From a virus: 35,580 nucleotides of DNA. The stretch spans positions 1 through 35,580 of the IMG/VR virus record IMGVR_UViG_3300042465_003644; one strand, given 5' to 3'. Below the pieces are notes generated by a model. The model ran no database searches. It saw only the letters and a list, made by a program, of their open reading frames with translations, and was not told the DNA's origin. Made by a program: the position numbers and the translations under genes. This document shows, one piece after another, positions 25,084 through 34,990 of this stretch (the stretch's first letter is position 1; every line of letters starts with the position of its first letter).

Positions 25084-26433
25084 ATGCCATTTTTTAATTC
25101 GGCAGGCGCGGCCGCAGTAGCGACAGGTCGTGGAGGATTTCATCCGAGTGTTTCGGGAACCGATGCGCCTGGCTCTTCAGCCGCAGGTTCTTTAGGAACA
25201 TCAACGCTAAGTGGCAATGGTCAAACCATTGCCCAAACCTCATCGTCAACTGTTACGGGTCAACGAGATATTATTGACCCATGGTTCACTGGCGCAGAAG
25301 CATATTCAATTGCATCAGGTTCTTTACCTCCAGGCTTTGCGCTCAACCCATCAACCGGTCAAGTAACCGGAGCATATACGATAGCAGGCTGGAACGAAGA
25401 CGGTACTTATAATTTTACTGTTCGCTCAAATACCGGTGACGGGCTTCATCAAAGCGACAGAGCATATTCGATTGCGGTTTCAGTTCCTTTTTTATATAAG
25501 CAAATTATTACAACCGGTTATGTAATTGGTGGTTATGTTAGTACTATTCCATTCAGAAATGTAACTGCAATGGCCAATGCAACTGATACTTTGTCAAATA
25601 AAGGTGATCTTGTCGGTACCGCGGCGCAATATTGCGATGGCTTCCCATCTAAAGATAATTCATATTCATTTGGTACGTCAGATAGTGCATCCACTGGTTC
25701 TTCAAGAACTGAAAAGTTCAATATGAGAACCGAGACTGCAATTGCACATAGTGCTACTAGAGATATGCCTGCGTCAAAAGATGACTTAACGATAGCATCA
25801 ACATTATCACCAGCCGCAGTTGGTTATATTTTTGGTGGCGGTTCAACATCAGTTTTTAAATTTACTTCAAGTAATGATACTTGTGCAACAATTCCTGCCA
25901 CATCAACTGCTGGATCACCAGCAACAATAACAGGTACTGGTTCTATTCAAGGAGAACTTAGCGCAGTTATAACTCCTGGTGCAAATAAATTTGTTTATTC
26001 AACAGAAACCAATACTGGTATTGCGCCAGCATATCCTGATGTAGACGGACAGCAAAAAGGCCTGTCCACAAAACTAGGTAAAGGCTACATGGGCAACGAA
26101 GGTGGTTATGCTAGAGGTTTTAACTTCCGAGTTTGGAATTTTAGTAGCGAAACATATACTACAGTAGCAAAGCCAGCAATTCCATTACACCCATTGGGTT
26201 ATGGTGAAGAAAATATGATCATGGGTCAACATTGGGGATATATTATGGGACTTTACAACGAATCAACTGGACAAATTTCAGATTGCATTAAACACATTTA
26301 TCCAACAGATAGTGGATATTATATGGGAATTAAAGCGGAAACTTCATCACCAAGTGCATTTAATACCGGTCCAACGACATATTCTGGACTGATGCCCGGA
26401 AGAAGTTCTGGAACTAAATCTTGGAGAGACTAA
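25084..26433 (+). CDS. Fibre/adhesin protein, copy A of a tandem pair
   Basis: 449 aa. The first 60 residues (MPFFNSAGAAAVATGRGGFH and on) are nearly the same as in copy B and probably attach the protein to the virion. Residues about 65-133 form a He_PIG-type Ig-like domain (GSLPPGFALNPSTGQVTGAY). The rest has recurring G-Y-x-x-G-G/G units (TTGYVIGGYVSTIPFRNV, VGYIFGGGSTSVFKF, WGYIMGLYNESTGQISDCIK), suggesting a beta-propeller or related repeated-sheet adhesin. I remember this family, with its QQKGLSTKLGKGYMGNEGGY motif, from aquatic T4-like phage fibre regions. It ends PGRSSGTKSWRD. GAAGGGG lies 7 bases before the ATG. The stop is followed at once by the ATG of copy B. Likely host-binding; the ligand is unknown. 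Confidence 0.65.
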   Translation: MPFFNSAGAAAVATGRGGFHPSVSGTDAPGSSAAGSLGTSTLSGNGQTIAQTSSSTVTGQRDIIDPWFTGAEAYSIASGSLPPGFALNPSTGQVTGAYTIAGWNEDGTYNFTVRSNTGDGLHQSDRAYSIAVSVPFLYKQIITTGYVIGGYVSTIPFRNVTAMANATDTLSNKGDLVGTAAQYCDGFPSKDNSYSFGTSDSASTGSSRTEKFNMRTETAIAHSATRDMPASKDDLTIASTLSPAAVGYIFGGGSTSVFKFTSSNDTCATIPATSTAGSPATITGTGSIQGELSAVITPGANKFVYSTETNTGIAPAYPDVDGQQKGLSTKLGKGYMGNEGGYARGFNFRVWNFSSETYTTVAKPAIPLHPLGYGEENMIMGQHWGYIMGLYNESTGQISDCIKHIYPTDSGYYMGIKAETSSPSAFNTGPTTYSGLMPGRSSGTKSWRD

Positions 26434-27789
26434 ATGCCATTTTTTAATTCGGCAGGCGCGGCCGCAATAGCAACAGGGCGTGGAGGATTTCACCCAAGTG
26501 TTTCTGGAACTGATAGCCCCGCATCGTCAGCCGCAGGTTCTTTAGGTACTTCAACGCTAAGTGGTAACGGACAGACCATTGCTTCTACTTCATCGTCAAC
26601 TGTTACTGGTCAGAGAGATATTATTGACCCATGGTTTACAGGAAGCGAATCTTACTCAATTACTTCAGGTTCTTTACCTCCAGGTTTTACACTTAATTCA
26701 TCAACGGGTCAAGTCACAGGTGCATATGCTGTAGCCGGTTGGAATGAAAATGGAACATACAACTTTACTGTTCGTGCAAATACTGGTGATGGGCTTCATC
26801 AAAGCGATAGAGCATACTCAATTGCAATATCTGTACCATTTTTCTATAAGCAAATCATTACAACTGGTTATGTAATCGGCGGTTATTTAAACTCAGTACC
26901 GTGGCGAAACGTACATGCAATGAATAATGCAACGGACACCACCACAAACAAAGGCGATTTGATTGGTAATGCCGCCCAATATACTGATGGTTTTCCATCT
27001 AGAAATTCTTCATATTCAATGGGTACAAGTGATAGCGCAGGTACTGGTTCTTCTAGAACCGATAAATTCAATATGAGAACTGAGACTGCTATTGCACATG
27101 ATGCTGGCAGAAACATGCCAGGTTCTAAAGATGACTTAACTATAATGAGTACACTGGCACCAGAAGCAGTAGGATATATTTTTGGTGGTGGCTCAACATC
27201 TATTTTTAAATTTCTTTCGAGTACTGATACTGCTTCAACAATTCCTGCAACCGGTCCATCAGGCGGTACGGGAACCGGATGCGGATCAATTCAAGATGAA
27301 TTGGTCGGACATGTTTGGGCAGATAGTAATAGCGGACAAACATTTACATACTCAACTGAAACTTTAGCCGCATCTGGTGGCGCGCCAGGATCGGCCGGAT
27401 TCAATGGACAGCAAAAAGGTTTGTCTACAAAATTAGGTAAAGGCTATGGTGGTAATGAAGGCGGATACTCAAGTGGATTTAACTTCCGTGTTTGGAATTT
27501 TAGTTCGGCTACATATACTACAGTAGCAAAACCTGCGATTCCTAGATACCCAAACGGTTATGGTGAAGAAAACATGATCATGGGTCAACATTGGGGATAC
27601 ATTATGGGATTTTATGTAGGCTTAGAACCAGTAACGACTCAAGTTTCTGATTGTATTAAAATGGTATATCCAACAAATACCGGATATTATATGGGTTTTG
27701 CTGCCGATACATCTACACCGGGTGGATTTAATACACCAACAGGAATTATGGGTGGTCGTAGTTCTGGAACAAAATCTTGGAGAGATTAA
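26434..27789 (+). CDS. Fibre/adhesin protein, copy B of a tandem pair
   Basis: 451 aa, clearly a paralogue of copy A with the same architecture: virion-attachment start, He_PIG Ig-like domain (GSLPPGFTLNSSTGQVTGAY), then G-Y-x-x-G-G repeat body and the same end (GGRSSGTKSWRD). Differences cluster in the loops near 150-170 (NSVPWRNVHAMNN against STIPFRNVTAMAN), 270-320 and 395-440. This is the pattern expected if a conserved scaffold presents variable binding surfaces. The ATG directly follows the stop of copy A with no spacer. The ribosome-binding site must then lie in the end of copy A (TTGGAGAG). Its own end, TTGGAGAGATTAA, repeats this sequence, which fits an origin by tandem duplication of a whole unit. 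Confidence 0.65.
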   Translation: MPFFNSAGAAAIATGRGGFHPSVSGTDSPASSAAGSLGTSTLSGNGQTIASTSSSTVTGQRDIIDPWFTGSESYSITSGSLPPGFTLNSSTGQVTGAYAVAGWNENGTYNFTVRANTGDGLHQSDRAYSIAISVPFFYKQIITTGYVIGGYLNSVPWRNVHAMNNATDTTTNKGDLIGNAAQYTDGFPSRNSSYSMGTSDSAGTGSSRTDKFNMRTETAIAHDAGRNMPGSKDDLTIMSTLAPEAVGYIFGGGSTSIFKFLSSTDTASTIPATGPSGGTGTGCGSIQDELVGHVWADSNSGQTFTYSTETLAASGGAPGSAGFNGQQKGLSTKLGKGYGGNEGGYSSGFNFRVWNFSSATYTTVAKPAIPRYPNGYGEENMIMGQHWGYIMGFYVGLEPVTTQVSDCIKMVYPTNTGYYMGFAADTSTPGGFNTPTGIMGGRSSGTKSWRD

Positions 27790-27814
27790 TTTTTTTGACT
27801 TGGAGAAAGTAAAC

Positions 27815-28696
27815 ATGACTGAATTGGTAACTAAAGAACATTTTGAAACATTAACAAAGAGATATTCAAAAAATTCTATTTCAACACACACTCAACAGGA
27901 AGCAAATTTGGTTCCTTTGAGCAATAGTGAAAAACATTTTTTAAGAGAAGATCAAAAAGAACTTCTAGAGTATGCAGTAAACCGCGAATGGCAAACATCA
28001 AAATTTAAGATGCGCCACTTTGTTGGTGATGCACAAGTAACGCCATATGCAAAATTAAAACAATATATTGTTGAAGCAAGAGAAAGAGAAGAAGCAATTG
28101 CTTCTATGGAATTTGAGAAAAGAAAACAGGAAGTTGAAGTAAAAATTCTCAAGAGAAAAATTGAACAAGAACAAGACGAACTTCAAAAAGAACTTCATCA
28201 AATTGAACTTGAGAAAAAAGAAAGAGGACAATCTTTAGGTATCAAACGAATTGAAGACCTATATAAAGAGCGTCAGCAATTCTTAGAATTAATTGATGAA
28301 TTCAATAACTCTCCAGAAGGAAGATTGCCAGATGGAACTTTGTTATTAGAATGTTTAAGCGATCCAATTAAAGAAGAAATTCTTGAAAGAGAATTGTGGA
28401 CTGCAAGACTAGCAAAGCAAGCGGCTATGGAAATTGCAACTGCTGGAAGAATTGGTTCAGGCAATTTAGATGCTATTGCAATGCTTGAAAAAAATCATCA
28501 AGCAGAAGTTTTATTCCTTGCAACAGACTATGGTACTAGACTTGAAAGCGCAATGGGATTTTTAAGAAACGAAGCGGCTGGTCAACTCAATCTAGCATAC
28601 AAAGACAAAGATGTTAAACTTACAGAGATTTTGTCTTTTACCGCACAAGAAAAAAATTATAACAATTTACTAGGGCACGAAAAGGTTAAAGAATGA
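27815..28696 (+). CDS. Coiled-coil phage protein, 293 aa
   Basis: Function not recognised. The ATG at 27815 is chosen because TGGAGAAAG lies 6 bases before it; an in-frame ATG further up would lie inside the previous gene. A central helix rich in Glu/Lys/Gln (about 85-155: ASMEFEKRKQEVEVKILKRK and on) should form a long coiled coil. It is flanked by a YAVNREWQTSKFKMRHFVGD segment before and a globular helical part after (LARLAKQ-like, IATAGRIGSGNLDAIAMLEK, then ATDYGTRLESAMGFLRNEAAG). No membrane segment or catalytic motif. It follows the adhesin pair and overlaps the next gene by 4 bases (ATGA). It might be an assembly factor or connector for the fibres; this rests on context only. Confidence 0.6.
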   Translation: MTELVTKEHFETLTKRYSKNSISTHTQQEANLVPLSNSEKHFLREDQKELLEYAVNREWQTSKFKMRHFVGDAQVTPYAKLKQYIVEAREREEAIASMEFEKRKQEVEVKILKRKIEQEQDELQKELHQIELEKKERGQSLGIKRIEDLYKERQQFLELIDEFNNSPEGRLPDGTLLLECLSDPIKEEILERELWTARLAKQAAMEIATAGRIGSGNLDAIAMLEKNHQAEVLFLATDYGTRLESAMGFLRNEAAGQLNLAYKDKDVKLTEILSFTAQEKNYNNLLGHEKVKE

Positions 28697-29265
28697 AAAT
28701 CATTTTTGTTCCAAAAAATTTAGTCTTCAATTACGAAGACCCTAACATTAGATATACAGGATCAAGAATTCCTATGTCATTTATGATGGGGTTTGTTGCG
28801 GATGTAGATAATTCTTTTGATTTTTCTGGCGTTGACTACAAAGAAATTACTGAAGAAGATTCATCAAGAACTATTAAGTTTTTTATGAATCCTAATGGGT
28901 ATGTCAAAGTTACGCAAGGTACCGAAAATTCTACACTAGAAATTACTTCATCAAAAGAAGAAATTGCTGGAATGCTTACCAAAGTTAAATACTATCTTAC
29001 TGATGAAGACAAAGCAAAAGCATTCTCTTTCACAAAAGAAAATGTTCTTTGGATGTTCGACTTGAGAGTTGATAGAGTTAAAAAAATACTTGATGACTTT
29101 AATAGAAGCGAATATGAAAGTAGCACTAATTTTGTTAGAACTCAACTTGTCAACGCAACAGAAATGAAAGACATTTTTGTAGTTGGACATAAATATTTTG
29201 GTATGCAGGCACCTCCTGCAATCGTAGAAGAATTCAATTTAACAACACCAACATTGGTAATATAA
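28693..29265 (+). CDS. Unknown protein, copy A of a tandem paralogous pair
   Basis: 190 aa. Begins MKIIFVPKNLVFNYEDPNIR and ends EEFNLTTPTLVI; the middle has SRTIKFFMNPNGYVKVTQGTENSTLE. The next gene is a diverged copy with the same beginning (MIVLFVPKSLPFDWEN), middle (RSYKFYLNVRGYIKVIKGTENTTLE) and end (EQYNLSTPTLLI). The ends are the best conserved parts. No known domain, signal peptide or membrane helix seen. The beta-rich first half and helical second half suggest a small structural or chaperone protein. It overlaps the coiled-coil gene by 4 bases. Confidence 0.6.
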   Translation: MKIIFVPKNLVFNYEDPNIRYTGSRIPMSFMMGFVADVDNSFDFSGVDYKEITEEDSSRTIKFFMNPNGYVKVTQGTENSTLEITSSKEEIAGMLTKVKYYLTDEDKAKAFSFTKENVLWMFDLRVDRVKKILDDFNRSEYESSTNFVRTQLVNATEMKDIFVVGHKYFGMQAPPAIVEEFNLTTPTLVI

Positions 29266-29266
29266 A

Positions 29267-29854
29267 ATGATTGTTCTTTTTGTACCTAAAAGCCTTCCCT
29301 TTGATTGGGAAAATCAGGCGTTCACTTATCTACCATTTAAATTTTCTATGCCATTTATGCGCGCCGATGGCGTAAGAGTATTAGACCCAACATCTACACA
29401 AGGCGCAGAATTTTTACAGAGTGTGTATTATATGATTCTTAATGAAACTGAATACACAAGAAGTTATAAATTTTATTTAAATGTTCGTGGTTATATCAAA
29501 GTAATCAAAGGTACTGAAAACACAACTTTAGAATCACCGCCCGGAAGTAGAAACTATGGTGATTATGAAAAAGTCAATTATTATCCTACCGATGAAGAAA
29601 ATGAATTAGGATTTCAGTACACAAAAAAAGTTTGGCGTTGGGCAATCAATGTTAGAAAAACTGAAAGATTGAAAAATTTAAGTGGACAAACCGCAGAAGA
29701 ATACACTTCAATTGTAAATTCAGTATTATCTGAAATTGAATCTGCAACAACTGTAACAGAATTAGGAAAGATTGCTCACACTAAATTGGGCGCTCAAACT
29801 ACCGATTTGATAATTGAACAATACAATTTATCAACACCAACATTATTAATTTGA
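29267..29854 (+). CDS. Unknown protein, copy B of a tandem paralogous pair
   Basis: 195 aa, paralogue of the preceding gene and starting one base after its stop. The shared framework includes FVPKxLxFxxEN, the KFxLNxRGYIKVxKGTEN beta stretch, the KVNYYPTDEENELGFQYTKK segment (KVKYYLTDEDKAKAFSFTKE in copy A), and the TPTLLI end. Copy B has an insertion near residues 40-55 (LDPTSTQGAEFLQSV). Function not recognised. Like the two adhesin genes just upstream, the pair is in tandem, so each copy may serve one adhesin; that is inference from number and order only. Confidence 0.6.
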   Translation: MIVLFVPKSLPFDWENQAFTYLPFKFSMPFMRADGVRVLDPTSTQGAEFLQSVYYMILNETEYTRSYKFYLNVRGYIKVIKGTENTTLESPPGSRNYGDYEKVNYYPTDEENELGFQYTKKVWRWAINVRKTERLKNLSGQTAEEYTSIVNSVLSEIESATTVTELGKIAHTKLGAQTTDLIIEQYNLSTPTLLI

Positions 29855-29869
29855 TTTTTAGGAGTCATC

Positions 29870-30448
29870 ATGATTGAGACAATGTTTACTGTGAATTTTT
29901 TTCACAAAACCTTAAACGCTAAAGTTGATCCACTTTTAATTTCAGAACTATCTACTGAAGTTACTGGAGAAACATATAATATTGACGATGGTGGATCATC
30001 ATCTCACCCAAGTAATGTGCTATATCAAACCGATGCGAGACTTGAATCTTTAGTAGATGAAATTAAAATTTCAACACAAGAAGCATGGAATGAATTAGAG
30101 TTTAGAGAAGATTTATCACCAATCATTACTGAAATGTGGATGAATGTTGTTTACCCTAAAGGTAAAATGACAGACCAAGCACATCATTCTAAGTATTCAA
30201 TGTATGGAGTTTATTATCTTCAAGCAGATGAAAATTGTGGTGATTTAGTTTTACATCATCCGTTAGATGGCATGACAAGAAACTTGCCGTATCAACCAAA
30301 GCCAAATCTAGACAGATATAAGATTAAGCCAAAGACAGGCGAATTGATTATTTTTCCATCATCATTTGTCTTCAACACAAAAGAAAACAAGAGTGAGTCT
30401 AATAGAATCACTCTTGAATTTGGAATTAATTACAAACTTAAAGTTTAA
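29870..30448 (+). CDS. 2OG-Fe(II) oxygenase-like protein, probably degenerate
   Basis: 192 aa with the double-stranded beta-helix pattern of the putative 2OG-Fe(II) oxygenase group (PF13759-like). EMWMNVVYPKG (88-98), then AHHSKYSMYGVYYLQADENC (104-123), GDLVLHHP, and KTGELIIFPSSFVFN (155-169), ending NRITLEFGIN. In active relatives the stretch after FPS reads roughly xLxHxVxPN; here the His position is Phe (residue 168), so one of the iron ligands seems lost. R179, used for 2-oxoglutarate, is present. TAGGAG lies 7 bases before the ATG. It converges with the minus-strand oxygenase, overlapping its stop by 4 bases. It could be inactive, structural, or use another residue as ligand. Confidence 0.55.
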   Translation: MIETMFTVNFFHKTLNAKVDPLLISELSTEVTGETYNIDDGGSSSHPSNVLYQTDARLESLVDEIKISTQEAWNELEFREDLSPIITEMWMNVVYPKGKMTDQAHHSKYSMYGVYYLQADENCGDLVLHHPLDGMTRNLPYQPKPNLDRYKIKPKTGELIIFPSSFVFNTKENKSESNRITLEFGINYKLKV

Positions 30449-30466
30449 TCTTCAAACTTTTTATTT
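30440..30466. terminator. Possible weak bidirectional terminator at convergent ends
   Basis: AAAGTTT (30440-30446) and AAACTTT (30454-30460) can form a 7-bp stem with a 7-base loop, followed by TTATTT. The stem is AT-rich and therefore weak. It lies exactly where the two converging genes end. It may only partly stop transcription. Confidence 0.3.
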
Positions 30467-31062
30467 GCTATTTGCTGTGTTTTAGGAAACCACAAAGAAC
30501 GTCTTTCATCCCATTTATGTTTAGGACTAAATTCTCCTTGAGCATCGATGTAGTGTAAGAACATTTGATAATGGCGTTTGCCTGTATAAGGCTTGCGCCA
30601 GTGTGGCAAAATACATCCACTATACACGGCTAAGTCTCCTGGCTCTAACTCCACTTCAACTTCTTCTCCATTTTCTTTCTGAAAATAAATTGGCCAGTCA
30701 ACTTCTTTCTTAACACATAGCGTAGCAGAGAATTGACAACTCGGTCTATCAATATGCTTTTCTAGCGTTCCTCCATTATAGTATATTCTCATATAACTAT
30801 AAGTCTCAACGAGTTTTTTATTTACAGTTTGTTCTAACATATCTCTGAGATATACTAGAAGACTATCGCCATAGAGCGGCGAGTAAAATGCAAAACTGTT
30901 TGGTGATTGTGGATCACCATATGGATATCTTTGCAAAGAGTTAGGTGGATTGTGGGTATATCCAGCGTATTCGTGAATATCAAAATTTAATTGAATAAAA
31001 CGAATAACTTCAGGATGAACTGCGTTTCGAATAATTTCGTATTTGTCTTCTTTGAATGCCAT
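30445..31062 (-). CDS. 2OG-Fe(II) oxygenase (prolyl-hydroxylase-like)
   Basis: 205 aa. The metal motif is intact: H103-x-D105 in LEKHIDRPSC and H154 in ILPHWRKP, with R163 in KRHYQMFLHYID as the 2-oxoglutarate-binding Arg. The core strands are YMRIYYNGGTLEKHIDRPSC, FSATLCVKKEVDWPIYFQKE and LEPGDLAVYSGC. Expected reaction: hydroxylation of an unknown substrate using 2-oxoglutarate and O2, as in P4H-like enzymes. A longer reading starting at 31101 is rejected because GATGAGG lies 6 bases before the ATG at 31062 and the extension overlaps the upstream gene. It is the last gene of the minus-strand cassette. The substrate cannot be told; lipid, protein and base are all possible. Confidence 0.75.
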   Translation of the reverse strand: MAFKEDKYEIIRNAVHPEVIRFIQLNFDIHEYAGYTHNPPNSLQRYPYGDPQSPNSFAFYSPLYGDSLLVYLRDMLEQTVNKKLVETYSYMRIYYNGGTLEKHIDRPSCQFSATLCVKKEVDWPIYFQKENGEEVEVELEPGDLAVYSGCILPHWRKPYTGKRHYQMFLHYIDAQGEFSPKHKWDERRSLWFPKTQQIANKKFED

Positions 31063-31069
31063 TTTTACC

Positions 31070-31696
31070 TCATCTAAATTTTGGACCAGTAACCCAACCA
31101 ACTAAAGACTTTCTCTTTCCTTCAGTAACTTCTGCAACTCTATGCAATAAAAATGATGGAAAAAACATAATTGATCCTCTTTTCATAATTGGTACTGCTG
31201 GTCCATTATGACTCACTAGAATTTCCATTCGACCACCTTTGTAATCAACTTCTGGTTCAGACAGTAGAAAAGTAAAAGACAATTTTCTAAATTCAATCAT
31301 CGTTGGTGGAGGGTTTGCACCTAAAAACGAATCAATATGATAATCATATTTACCCTCATACTTTGCGCTGTATTCAGTATATTGAAGACTATCATAACCA
31401 TTCAATACAAAATTAAAATGATTGTTGTTTACATCTTCAATTACTTGATTCAATCTTTTAAAAATCCAAATTGTTTCTTCGTCAGGGTTAACCCAAGCGA
31501 TATTAGATTTTCTAGAATTTTTTAAAATCTCTTCGTCTTGTTCAATTGCCACTTGTCCCATGAACAATTCTTTTCTTGACATAATCTCACATATCTTATC
31601 CAATTCGTCTGGAGTAAATACATCATTTGCAGTTATGAATGTTTCTAACGCTCTTGATCTGTAATTGGTAAAGTTTGTTATTCCTTTGTATTCCAT
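31070..31696 (-). CDS. 2OG-Fe(II) oxygenase, PKHD type
   Basis: 208 aa. H120-x-D122 in YDYHIDSFLG, H185 in FPSFLLHRV and R195 in GKRKSLVGWV form the full iron and 2-oxoglutarate site. RKLSFTFLLSEPEVDYKGGR (137-156) and the ending KRKSLVGWVTGPKF are close to the PKHD/PiuC-like hydroxylase pattern (...GxRxSLVGW...). Family length is about 220-230 aa, so this is near full length. It is likely an active oxygenase on an unknown substrate. The start MEYKGITNFTNYRSR is supported by AAGGAATTATT upstream on the minus strand. The gene lies 9 bases after its upstream neighbour and 7 before the second oxygenase, so the three probably share one transcript. Confidence 0.75.
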   Translation of the reverse strand: MEYKGITNFTNYRSRALETFITANDVFTPDELDKICEIMSRKELFMGQVAIEQDEEILKNSRKSNIAWVNPDEETIWIFKRLNQVIEDVNNNHFNFVLNGYDSLQYTEYSAKYEGKYDYHIDSFLGANPPPTMIEFRKLSFTFLLSEPEVDYKGGRMEILVSHNGPAVPIMKRGSIMFFPSFLLHRVAEVTEGKRKSLVGWVTGPKFR

Positions 31697-31705
31697 AATA
31701 ATTCC

Positions 31706-32470
31706 TTAAAAATATTTTCTTAGAGTCTTCATAAAAAGATTTTTGTAAGTAGCAGTTCTATCAAACGAATAAGAATTGATATAGTTTTTCTTTTCTAGCC
31801 ACTCATTATCTTTTTGATTTGCATCTCTCACAACCAATTCTAATTTTCTTTCTGTAATTGGTATGATATGAACTAAAGGATATCCTGCGGGAAACAATTG
31901 ACTTCCATGAGGTACATTCCACCAACCTTGAATGTTTACCTCAGTCGATTCATCGGTATCTAGAAACCCGATTGACGCATCAAATAGTGCATTGTCTGGA
32001 TAAGAAATTGGATTAAAAAGAAGTTTAACTCCTTGTGGCGCGACTACAGACCAAGGAGTGTTAATCTTCATAAAATTGTTAGATTGATTCCATGTTCTAG
32101 GAAGATGTTTCAAAATATGATCTGGCTGATTTTCAATCAATGCTTTGCTAGTAAAAATATCTTTAGTTAGTGCTTCAGATGGAACAGTCCATTCAAATCC
32201 TCTGCCTCTTGTCGAATCTACTTCAATAACTGCATCGTGCCATAAAGGAACAATATATCCAGTAGTCATTAATTTAACAATGCCTGGACATTTAGCAATA
32301 TGTGATCTTCTGACTGAAGGCCACTTATTCTCTTTTAATTCCTTATTACTATCTTTAAAATCTTTAAAGGCATTTGTCATCCAAGTTGGCATCATTTTTG
32401 ACGCATGAACAATTGGAAATGCTTCCGCAAGTCCCGGAACACTAGAAAAGAAAATTATTTCGTCTTTCAT
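31706..32470 (-). CDS. Conserved aquatic-phage protein of unknown function
   Basis: 254 aa, starting at the ATG at 32470, which overlaps the upstream stop (ATGA) and has GGTGAG a few bases before it. An ATG at 32506 lies inside the upstream gene and is rejected. Recognisable stretches are MPTWMTNAFKDFKD, RRSHIAKCPGIVKLMTTGYI (54-73), VPLWHDAVIEV, APQGVKLLFNPISYP, then FPAGYPLVHIIPIT. I remember proteins with this CPxxxxLxxxGYIxPLxxDxxI pattern from aquatic T4-like phages, often near 2OG oxygenases, but no function. No signal peptide or membrane helix. Lying between a methyltransferase fusion and two oxygenases, it may bind or present their substrate; inference only. Confidence 0.55.
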   Translation of the reverse strand: MKDEIIFFSSVPGLAEAFPIVHASKMMPTWMTNAFKDFKDSNKELKENKWPSVRRSHIAKCPGIVKLMTTGYIVPLWHDAVIEVDSTRGRGFEWTVPSEALTKDIFTSKALIENQPDHILKHLPRTWNQSNNFMKINTPWSVVAPQGVKLLFNPISYPDNALFDASIGFLDTDESTEVNIQGWWNVPHGSQLFPAGYPLVHIIPITERKLELVVRDANQKDNEWLEKKNYINSYSFDRTATYKNLFMKTLRKYF

Positions 32471-34131
32471 TTTCTCACCACAACAATATACAATCCATTC
32501 CACCAATCTTTAGAACTTTCAATTCCGTTAAGAATCTTCTTATGATACAGAATTTCTAGTCCAGCCTTTTTAATGCCTTCATCGGCACCAGAAACAATAC
32601 CATCCCAGTTTGCGTCATCGAAAATCAAAATGGCTTCATCGGCAAGTTTATCTGCATAGTACAATACTGCATTTCTTGTTGACTCATGATCGTGCGGACC
32701 GTCATAGAACATAAACTTTACAGGCTCATCAATCAAATCTTTATTGACTTGAAGAAAATCAGCATCGATAGCGTGAACATGATTCTCTTGTACATATGGT
32801 TCAATTGCACTAGCAAACTTTTCGTATTTGTTTTCTGGCATCTCAAAGTTACCATTCTCTGGATGTGTGGTTTGCGACCAGTTATCAATTGCCCATGCTT
32901 TAATTGTGTTACCTCTCAATGCAGATGCAAGTGTCGCACCCATTGCGGTACCAATCTCAAGATAATTGCCTGCAAATTTTGCAGTATGATTAATAATCTT
33001 TTGCACTCTAGGGCTTGTTAAGCCTTTGATGTTGATAATGATATTATCTGTAGCAGACTTTTCAACAATATCTGCCATTGCAGAAACGATTGGCGTAATA
33101 AATTGAGTTGCTTTCTTGTCATAGATTTTATCGCAGTAGTGACAATCCCAGCAATCAAATTTGCAAGTTTTAATTTTCTTGCGCCAAACATCAATAGGTT
33201 TTTCTTCTAAGTTATTGTCGGCAATATAATCATCGAATTGATTGAAAAGAATTTCATCACCATTTGCAAAGCGTTTGATGATATCCATTGTTTCAAGTAA
33301 TCTAGATGAGGCTTCGCGCCCATGCATCTTGATTACATCAATACCTAATTCTTCAACAAACTCAACCCAATCTTCACGCCATGGTGGAAAGTTAGCCGTC
33401 TTCAATGATAATGCGTTGTCTTGATATTCCCACTTGGTGCAACTTACTCGGCTTGATGGTGCATTAAAATACTGTGGCGCATCATTGCCTCTTGTGTTAT
33501 TGTATTCAAAGTGTTCTACCATGAATGGGCATTGACCCATACAGCCTTCATTTGCGAGAAGGCTAAGTTTAATTGGCATATCATTTTTGTGACAGTATTC
33601 TTTTGCTTCTTTGATTCTCAATAATGCATCTCTGTCTCGCATAAGATCACGATCCAAATTGATGTAATGAAATCCTGCCTGTGCAAGGTTCACTACTTCA
33701 GTTGCAGTATGAACATCTCTAAGGATTGTATTTTTGATCATCAACTTAGGAAATGCTTCCTGAATTTGACCCGTAGCAACCCAATGGGTGTGCGGTATCG
33801 TAGCAATATGAATGCCAGCATCATAGTATGGCTTGAAGTTTTCAATCCATAAATCTAGATTTTCTTGCGTTGGTGGAACTTGAATATTATTGAATGTTGC
33901 GCTGATTGGTATGCCAAGCGCGTCTTGAATATTTCTAGCGGCTAAAATGGCTTGTTCATAATCACCATCATTTTTGAACACATCTCCCATTGCATCCTGA
34001 TGAAAGGGTGCGATCCGAGAGGTAAAATACACATCGTAAATCCAGTCTTTATATTTCTGCAAAAAGCCTAAAAAGTTAAAATATTCCTTTTCAGACAGTT
34101 TTGGGTTTAATGGTACACTAAAAATTTTCAT
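32467..34131 (-). CDS. U32-like Fe-S TIM barrel fused to a SAM methyltransferase
   Basis: 554 aa, two parts. Residues 1-340 resemble U32-family barrels (RlhA, UbiU/UbiV): NIQDALGIPISATFNNIQVP (67-86), IKNTILRDVHTATEVVNLAQ (132-151), FHYINLDRDLMRDRDALLRI (154-173) and LLANEGCMGQCPF (191-203). Possible Fe-S ligands are C197, C201 and C231, plus a late cluster, C323, C327, C330 and C333 (CKFDCWDCHYC). Residues about 375-554 are a class I methyltransferase of the Methyltransf_24 type: GNYLEIGTAMGATLASAL (motif I, 388-405), AIDNW (acidic residue after strand 2), FMFYDGPHDHESTRNAVLYY (473-492) and LIFDDANWDG. U32 proteins known so far do O2-independent hydroxylation; a fusion with a methyltransferase is unusual to me. 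AAGGTGAATGA precedes the minus-strand start; it is the first gene of the cassette. No claim is made about the substrate. Confidence 0.65.
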   Translation of the reverse strand: MKIFSVPLNPKLSEKEYFNFLGFLQKYKDWIYDVYFTSRIAPFHQDAMGDVFKNDGDYEQAILAARNIQDALGIPISATFNNIQVPPTQENLDLWIENFKPYYDAGIHIATIPHTHWVATGQIQEAFPKLMIKNTILRDVHTATEVVNLAQAGFHYINLDRDLMRDRDALLRIKEAKEYCHKNDMPIKLSLLANEGCMGQCPFMVEHFEYNNTRGNDAPQYFNAPSSRVSCTKWEYQDNALSLKTANFPPWREDWVEFVEELGIDVIKMHGREASSRLLETMDIIKRFANGDEILFNQFDDYIADNNLEEKPIDVWRKKIKTCKFDCWDCHYCDKIYDKKATQFITPIVSAMADIVEKSATDNIIINIKGLTSPRVQKIINHTAKFAGNYLEIGTAMGATLASALRGNTIKAWAIDNWSQTTHPENGNFEMPENKYEKFASAIEPYVQENHVHAIDADFLQVNKDLIDEPVKFMFYDGPHDHESTRNAVLYYADKLADEAILIFDDANWDGIVSGADEGIKKAGLEILYHKKILNGIESSKDWWNGLYIVVVRK

Positions 34132-34153: not shown

Positions 34154-34161
34154 TGTTTATA
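34154..34161 (-). promoter_or_regulatory. Possible late-like promoter of the minus-strand cassette, TATAAACA
   Basis: The minus strand reads TATAAACA, one base from TATAAATA, giving a leader of about 17 bases before the ATG at 34131. TATATAAT directly upstream on the minus strand could instead act as a host-type -10 element, but no convincing -35 is visible at 16-18 bases. Confidence 0.25.
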
Positions 34162-34201: not shown

Positions 34202-34209
34202 CATAAATA
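34202..34209 (+). promoter_or_regulatory. Late promoter, CATAAATA
   Basis: Seven of eight matches to the late box. A transcript starting near 34215 would carry AGGGG (34231-34235) and the gp13 ATG at 34241. It would exclude the upstream in-frame ATG at 34211, which is used here to choose the gp13 start. Confidence 0.55.
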
Positions 34210-34240
34210 GATGGTAGAAATTAACCTTATAGGGGCACAA

Positions 34241-34990
34241 ATGAGTACGCACAAACCAGCAACCAGAGAAGAATTTAAAGACTACTGCCTCCGTCAACTT
34301 GGCGCACCGGTTCTGGAAATCAACATTGATGATTTGCAGGTCGAAGATTGCGTGGAAGCCGCACTTCAAGTTTACCACGACTATCACTACGATGGTACCG
34401 AAAAAGTTTACCTAGCACACAAAGTAACCGAAACTGACATTGCAAACAAGTATTTAGATATACCTGAGAACGTCATTTCAGTTATCAATATCCTTGACAT
34501 TGGTAATTCATACTCTACCAACAATCTTTTCAACATTCGCTATCAGATGGCGCTGAACGATTTGTTCGCGTTTAATTACGGTCCGTTCGCACCATACTAT
34601 ATGGCTTTACAAAACGTAGCACTTGCTGAAGAAATGTTCGTAGGCAAGCAAGGTTTACGTTTTAATCGCCATGTGAACAAACTTTACATTGATATGGCAT
34701 GGGGTGAAAAGATTCTCAAAGACGAGTATATCATAATTGAAGGCTATCGTCTACTTGATCCAGACACATATACCGATGTGTGGAATGATCGTTGGCTAAA
34801 GAAGTATGCTACCGCAATGATTAAAAAACAATGGGGTAATAACCTCAAAAAGTTTGAAGGTTTACAAATGCCAGGCGGTGTAACATTTAATGGACAAAAA
34901 ATCTATGATGAAGCAGAGGATGAATTAAAAGCACTGGACGAGGACTTGATTCGTTCTTATTCTTTGCCAGTAACAGACATGATGGGATAA
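34241..34990 (+). CDS. 13: Neck protein gp13
   Basis: Neck protein that, with gp14, closes the filled head and offers the site for tail joining. 249 aa from the ATG at 34241, which has AGGGG 6 bases before it. An in-frame ATG at 34211 is disfavoured because it lies at or before the expected late transcription start. Diagnostic stretches are TREEFKDYCLRQLGAPVLEINIDDLQVEDCVEAALQVYHDYHYDG (8-52), then YLDIPENVISVINI, YMALQNVALAEEMFVG and LKKYATAMIKKQWGNNLKKF, the well-conserved T4-like gp13 pattern. T4 gp13 is 309 aa; aquatic relatives are shorter, like this one. It is the first gene behind a late promoter and is followed 4 bases later by gp14, in the T4 order. Confidence 0.88.
   Translation: MSTHKPATREEFKDYCLRQLGAPVLEINIDDLQVEDCVEAALQVYHDYHYDGTEKVYLAHKVTETDIANKYLDIPENVISVINILDIGNSYSTNNLFNIRYQMALNDLFAFNYGPFAPYYMALQNVALAEEMFVGKQGLRFNRHVNKLYIDMAWGEKILKDEYIIIEGYRLLDPDTYTDVWNDRWLKKYATAMIKKQWGNNLKKFEGLQMPGGVTFNGQKIYDEAEDELKALDEDLIRSYSLPVTDMMG

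Follow-up and report, generated by a model that had tools for sequence, protein, structure and literature searches.

A protein that joins a U32-like barrel and a methyltransferase accompanies one kind of tail-tip protein in T4-like marine phages and suggests chemical finishing of host-binding tips

In this work, we have analysed a stretch of viral DNA of 35,580 nucleotides (IMG/VR record IMGVR_UViG_3300042465_003644, positions 1 to 35,580; hereafter the window), which is part of a marine T4-like myovirus as judged from its baseplate gp8-like and neck gp13-like proteins. Four open reading frames (D-C-B-A, 30445-34131) lie there on the minus strand, between plus-strand fibre genes and the plus-strand neck genes gp13/gp14, and are preceded by a group of plus-strand genes (25084-30448) in the same interval between the fibre genes and gp13. 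Our analysis centres on A, in which a U32-like barrel is fused to a methyltransferase. It is always accompanied by one particular kind of tail-tip protein, suggesting a chemical finishing of the host-binding tips in these viruses. The genes concerned are the following.

25084-26433, plus strand: fib0 copy 1, predicted tail-tip/adhesin protein (phrog_1417; T4-GC 351, 'sericin 1 precursor-like' in cyanophages)
26434-27789, plus strand: fib0 copy 2, tandem paralogue, 78% identity to copy 1
27830-28696, plus strand: f3, coiled-coil protein (phrog_1409 / T4-GC 353), first possible start at 27698
28693-29265, plus strand: f2 copy 1, T4-GC 352-like partner
29267-29854, plus strand: f2 copy 2
29870-30448, plus strand: E, 2-oxoglutarate (2OG)-Fe(II) oxygenase family by profile (PF13759, phrog_81), converging on D
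30445-31062, minus strand: D, H-x-D...H...R oxygenase-type protein by motif (phrog_2954), first possible start at 31101
31070-31696, minus strand: C, PKHD-type 2OG-Fe(II) oxygenase (PF13640) by profile and PDB matches
31706-32470, minus strand: B, 255 amino acids, dUTPase/dCTP-deaminase-like fold by model and profile search (phrog_7084, distant kin of DUF6065)
32467-34131, minus strand: A, 554 amino acids, U32-like barrel and methyltransferase fusion by profiles and fold (phrog_1458 / T4-GC 354)
32470-33012, minus strand: residues ~374-554 of A, class I S-adenosylmethionine (SAM) methyltransferase domain (PF13578; O-methyltransferase structure matches)
33097-34131, minus strand: residues 1-345 of A, U32-like barrel (Foldseek match to 5d88; barrel-only homologues of ~409 amino acids)
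33133-33165, minus strand: C323-x3-C327-x2-C330-x2-C333 of A, invariant, barrel-only homologues included
33439-33543, minus strand: C197-C231 of A, EGC-x-G-x-C ... C cluster, invariant in the alignment of relatives

The minus-strand genes are closely packed: B and A overlap by 4 bases, 9 bases separate C from B and 7 bases D from C, and D overlaps the convergent gene E by 4 bases. A first-pass annotation, made from the sequence alone, had described just such a block on the strand opposite to the fibre and neck genes that flank it, and its coordinates and spacing agree exactly with ours.

The model of A has a mean predicted local distance difference test (pLDDT) score of 84, and its barrel is matched by the U32 protein Mk0906 (5d88), which of the 50 Foldseek matches listed has the highest TMt (0.69, 279 columns); the U32-like barrel proposed in the first-pass annotation is thus indeed present. 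The pyruvate kinases that top the same list were discounted because they superpose at ~23 Angstrom. Seven cysteines (C197, C201, C231, C323, C327, C330 and C333) are invariant in 39 relatives of A, and all seven are kept in the barrel-only relatives of ~409 amino acids, which have no methyltransferase. The Glu and Cys residues essential in TrhP and RlhA (E-x7-C-x6-C; E162, C170 and C177 in TrhP) are unmatched in A, which reads N-E195-G-C197-x3-C201, with no Glu eight residues before C197. The invariant C197-x3-C201 may correspond to the C-x3-C among the Fe-S cysteines of UbiV, whose remaining positions could not be superposed. Our genome scan for cellular relatives yielded only two short contigs, both from metagenome-assembled genomes, and one or both of these have phage-like content.

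The C-terminal part of A is a class I SAM methyltransferase, with a PF13578 match at residues 391-506 (1.5e-11, 45.5 bits against a cut-off of 26.3), a conserved SAM motif (E392-I-G394...G398, D416) and Foldseek matches to the O-methyltransferases SafC, SynOMT, BcOMT and TrmR; its invariant D477 and D505-D506-A-N508 resemble the COMT-like D...D-N metal ligands, without being an exact match. The first-pass annotation had given the methyltransferase a gene of its own, and to that extent its assignments, right for the barrel and for the H-x-D...H...R sites of two oxygenase-type proteins, have to be changed, since the PF13578 domain lies inside A. Its suggestion that one substrate is hydroxylated and then methylated becomes more likely now that barrel and methyltransferase are found fused in one protein, although not as the work of a dedicated four-gene system.

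Our results show that A is an obligate companion of f3 and of the C-terminal domain of fib0. A tblastn survey of 50,697 annotated phage records, used for f3 in place of an IMG/VR anchor search, for which it offers no conserved stretch, found A, f3 and the C-terminal domain of fib0 in exactly 123 records each, with the same split in each case (Synechococcus 77, Cyanophage 38, Prochlorococcus 8) and with hosts that agree among the matches listed; the equality of the three sets is one of counts and breakdowns, not an accession-by-accession match. Full-length fib0 reaches 158 records, the extra phages sharing its N-terminal part only, and thus A goes with the tip domain and not with the common N-terminus. 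Among IMG/VR loci with enough flanking sequence, which include near-duplicates (101 distinct A proteins among 137 loci), A was found with f3 in 143/143, f3 with A in 143/143, A with fib0 in 138/138 and A with f2 in 143/144. The gene order in 84 A loci is nearly always fib0 - f3/f2 - A.

These proteins also diverge together. Over 18 loci, the protein distances of A correlate with those of fib0 (r 0.78; 0.76 given gp13) and f3 (r 0.74; 0.72 given gp13), whereas the correlation with the neck protein gp13 is only 0.26. Phages that carry A are dispersed over the gp13 tree (S-CAM4, which has A, stands for example next to L092, which does not), and an independent-pairs test of A against f3 on this tree gave no opposing pair among only 3 pairs (p 0.25). 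Strict pairing, co-divergence and scatter together show that A, f3, f2 and fib0 behave as one unit exchanged between phages. The first-pass annotation, which missed the link between A and the tip module, had offered a base, tRNA, a protein, a lipid or a quinone as substrates; the link points to the tail tip and away from DNA, tRNA, lipid and quinone. A unit that travels as one block could nevertheless be held together by the exchange itself, with A acting on an unrelated target such as DNA, a quinone or a host protein. The block does lie in a frequently exchanged region, and the distances of E and of B are likewise correlated with those of A (0.47 for E and 0.74 for B with gp13 held constant, the B value from 45 pairs). 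We consider this explanation unlikely, as E, B, the halogenase, C and D vary in their presence around A, in contrast to f3 and fib0.

What do the neighbouring genes encode? The first-pass annotation had recognised two oxygenases with complete H-x-D...H...R sites, and C and D do carry these residues. C has a PF13640 match (1.9e-11), the site H120-I-D122, H185 and R195 of a PKHD-type enzyme, and PDB matches to 3dkq (8e-9) and PiuC (9ghl). D, with neither a Pfam nor a PDB match in our searches, has H103-I-D105, H154 and R163, of which H103-x-D105 and H154 are invariant in five members. E is a third oxygenase-family gene of the neighbourhood, outside the four of the first-pass annotation; despite its PF13759 match it has no H-x-D motif in its sequence, and it may therefore be inactive or use different metal ligands.

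In these cyanophage clusters, oxygenase-type proteins carry misleading names in PHROGs and GenBank: 'ferrochelatase' for the family of D (phrog_2954; 30445-31062 in the window), 'DNA endonuclease V' and 'minor coat protein' (L014:11782-12351 and L083:8703-9413). In our check, phrog_274 matched PF13640/PF13759, phrog_2954 had H-x-D...H and the 'minor coat protein' gene matched DUF6445. Such wrong family names hide the size of the cyanophage oxygenase islands.

B, the 255-amino-acid protein that had been taken for the methyltransferase, is ruled out as such by its fold. All 50 Foldseek matches listed for its AlphaFold model (mean pLDDT 85) are dUTPases or dCTP deaminases (probability 0.87-1.00, TMt 0.36-0.66, best E 1e-3), and a profile search agrees weakly with this fold. 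In the alignment, inspected by eye, there is no PRSS-like motif II; the motif III Asp is kept (D171) and the motif III Tyr is not conserved. Proteins of the B family also occur in haloarchaeal HF2-like viruses (L333:5914-6798; L334:5914-6750), between a ribonucleotide reductase gene and tail-fibre/adhesin genes.

Hundreds of viral contigs contain groupings of A, B, C, D and E relatives, so the packing of these genes is not chance. The first-pass annotation had gone further and proposed a joint role for the four minus-strand genes, to be checked by a co-occurrence search across phage genomes; independent scatter of the homologues would speak against it. Co-occurrence holds for the families in general, but the inverted A-B-C-D order is found only in near relatives (in full in L001 and L002, without B in L004, truncated in L003), and none of the 20 D-anchored loci of at least 12 kb has A. 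B, C and D are common without A and, with E, are part of oxygenase/halogenase islands widespread in cyanophage-like viruses; the four genes are therefore not one dedicated system, and we see in them a local combination of modular parts. The earlier observation is thus real and partly mis-assigned: the conserved unit is the U32-methyltransferase fusion with the tip module, not the four genes.

Loci selected through B or a halogenase (Hal) are of two types, fib0-f3-f2-A-(E)-Hal-E-B and, without A, Hal-Hal-B-E-E-O23-D-gp13, the latter as in syn9 and S-RIM44, whose whole genomes lack A. The window combines both types with its A-to-D block inverted, and among loci with both genes this inversion is restricted to near relatives. 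The halogenase/2OG islands of syn9, Syn10, S-RIM44 and P-TIM40 likewise come after fibre and fibre-assembly genes. In Syn10 (L335:3885-6990) two halogenase genes lie between fibre-assembly genes and the B-family gene, in an oxygenase island; one of the two, judged from gene length only, is probably the iodinase VirX1, and this position is a possible lead to its native substrate. Neither a halogenase nor a carbamoyltransferase was found in the 25-35 kb region of the window, while relatives of A do carry halogenases.

The barrel-only relatives of A (L286:8760-9989; L278, L285, L288, L297 and L310) have a flavin halogenase as neighbour, either immediately after the barrel gene or with one oxygenase gene in between. 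As read in L286, another tip protein, rich in glycine (PF21722), and a 139-amino-acid protein lie close upstream of the barrel gene, and the halogenase follows; this is a second, separate barrel/tail-tip pairing. Two further proteins accompany A elsewhere: the f4 family (L020:9646-10596 and relatives), a predicted DUF401 membrane protein, comes after A in 45 of 55 long loci and is absent from the window, and a second, unrelated methyltransferase-like protein (RrnaAD/Methyltransf_25; L060:1964-2650) directly follows A in a few loci.

Reports of 2OG oxygenases and tryptophan halogenases in cyanophages go back to 2010 and connect these enzymes with nitrogen sensing, DNA repair or antibiotics (PMC3037559, PMC2984593). 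More recently, Iyer et al. (2021) interpreted cyanophage clusters of halogenase, 2OG, cupin and O-methyltransferase genes as capsule or secondary-metabolite systems (PMC7824862). The islands might, in the same way, decorate capsule or lipopolysaccharide, or make a halogenated secondary metabolite that aids the infected host. In favour of this, besides the published interpretation of related jumbo cyanophage clusters, natural-product pathways typically use flavin halogenases, PKHD oxygenases and O-methyltransferases, and VirX1 of Syn10, the first viral halogenase to be characterised, has a broad small-molecule substrate scope (PMC8407142). The neighbourhood of the window, however, has no carbamoyltransferase or sugar phosphatase, the markers of the published clusters, and a small-molecule pathway leaves the pairing and co-divergence of A, f3 and the fib0 tip domain unexplained; we doubt that it is the right answer. 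More improbable still, in our judgement, is that A acts on RNA as a phage TrhP-like hydroxylase joined to a TrmR-like methyltransferase that converts U34 of host or phage tRNA to 5-methoxyuridine, since nothing would make a tRNA enzyme follow a tail-tip domain, the TrhP/RlhA residues named above are unmatched and the methyltransferase of A is nearer PF13578, even though B. subtilis YrrM/TrmR is the only PDB sequence match of the A profile (E 0.004) and TrhP and TrmR make 5-hydroxyuridine and 5-methoxyuridine in sequence (PMC6599085).

We tentatively favour, at somewhat less than an even chance, a reading in which the genes of the region make up a tail-tip (adhesin) module together with enzymes dedicated to its maturation, A hydroxylating and then O-methylating the tip protein or its partner and the other oxygenases adding further groups. 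Late in infection, the Fe-S barrel of A would hydroxylate a residue on fib0 or f3, most likely an aromatic ring by analogy with known U32 members, which hydroxylate rings without O2. The C-terminal domain would then O-methylate the new hydroxyl, and this would be the simplest reason for the fusion. C and D, E if it is active, and the halogenase of the relatives could place extra hydroxyl or halogen groups on the same or neighbouring residues, and B, with its dUTPase fold and no recognisable motif-II signature, might act as a subunit with a binding or accessory role. A tip modified in this way would be more stable or bind its receptor differently. In the lineage of the window, the A-B-C-D block would have been turned round with respect to the fibre and neck genes.

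The sequences around the start of A might bear on the timing of its expression.

34154-34161, minus strand: T4-late-promoter-like TATAAACA, 23 bases upstream of A
34211-34990, plus strand: neck protein gp13 (head-tail adaptor Ad2), with ATAAATA ahead of it at 34203-34209

The TATAAACA upstream of A would fit late expression, yet across the window its frequency is no higher than chance. ATAAATA also occurs at chance level, a promoter scan gave 18 promoter-like sites against 18.9 in shuffles, with no excess, and terminator-like sites were in slight excess (4 against 2.1).

Several points weigh against a tip-maturation role for A. PF01136 matches neither A, nor its 39 relatives, nor the barrel-only relatives, and hhalign comparison with the E. 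coli U32 proteins UbiU, TrhP, RlhA and UbiV is weak (E 0.02 for A, 7e-4 with the barrel-only relatives), the alignment being in register to the RELS-like motif at low probability. With the TrhP/RlhA catalytic residues missing as well, A is U32-like in fold and is not placed in the TrhP, RlhA or Ubi subfamilies, an assignment drawn mainly from the predicted fold. The IMG/VR f3 matches come partly from A-anchored loci, a bias of which the phage-record counts are free. The interval between fibre and neck genes is plastic, so nearness alone proves little. From its position, its tandem copies, an N-terminal part common to variable tips and weak Kelch-propeller matches, the only ones, we infer that fib0 is a receptor-binding tip protein; in its alignment no residue stands out as a modification site and only G-x-SS is near-invariant. 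A C-terminal tryptophan, considered as a universal target, is present in many tails and missing from many others. What is observed is the linkage, along with gene content, conserved residues, folds or profiles and co-divergence; the chemistry and the substrate, and with them product and modified residue, are inferred.

The broader proposal, that in T4-like marine phages a U32-type hydroxylase/O-methyltransferase fusion, helped by 2OG oxygenases and halogenases, modifies the receptor-binding protein, is possible, if on the doubtful side, and we found no phage adhesin modified by such hydroxylation, methylation or halogenation in the literature searched. The role of the cyanophage oxygenases and halogenases has so far been guessed (DNA repair, nitrogen sensing, antibiotics, capsule decoration), and the strict pairing gives one direct test, the mass of the tip proteins in isolates such as Syn33, S-RIM2 and P-HM2. 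If tip maturation is true, phage host range depends on chemical modification as well as on sequence, the native role of viral halogenases becomes approachable, with a native substrate class supplied for VirX1, and U32 activity on protein, of which no report is known to us, would be established.

How does this module compare with known systems? The first-pass annotation knew of no described phage system of this make-up, which is too strong, because the clusters of Iyer et al. (PMC7824862) hold related enzymes; a U32 component and an adhesin link are not mentioned in the part of that paper drawn on here. That part describes clusters from the same phage group, with 2OG-Fe(II) dioxygenases, and with flavin halogenase, cupin-like proteins and O-methyltransferases as shared enzyme classes; unlike the window, they have core carbamoyltransferases, a HemK-like methylase and HAD phosphatases. 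The genes of the module are T4-GC 351-352-353-354 of cyanophages (numbering of Sullivan et al. 2010; annotations of P-HM2 and Syn33), that is, the same fib0, f2, f3 and A in the same neighbourhood, which in the portion of those sources used here are annotated as hypothetical or 'sericin 1 precursor-like', with no enzyme assignment or pairing given. An enzyme identity for T4-GC 354, the strict tip-domain pairing and a maturation role were not found in the literature searched. With TrhP, RlhA and UbiU/UbiV, A has the barrel fold and a cysteine cluster in common; it differs from these U32 hydroxylases in having no PF01136 match, another cysteine spacing, the extra C-x3-C-x2-C-x2-C and the fused methyltransferase. 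In the VirX1 locus of Syn10, which comes after fibre-assembly genes, halogenases have oxygenases and a B-family protein as neighbours, whereas syn9, of the same genus as Syn10, lacks A in its whole genome and the window has no halogenase. Finally, C matches the PiuC/YbiX PKHD-type hydroxylases in sequence and active site, and differs from them in being phage-encoded and in lying in a tail-tip neighbourhood.

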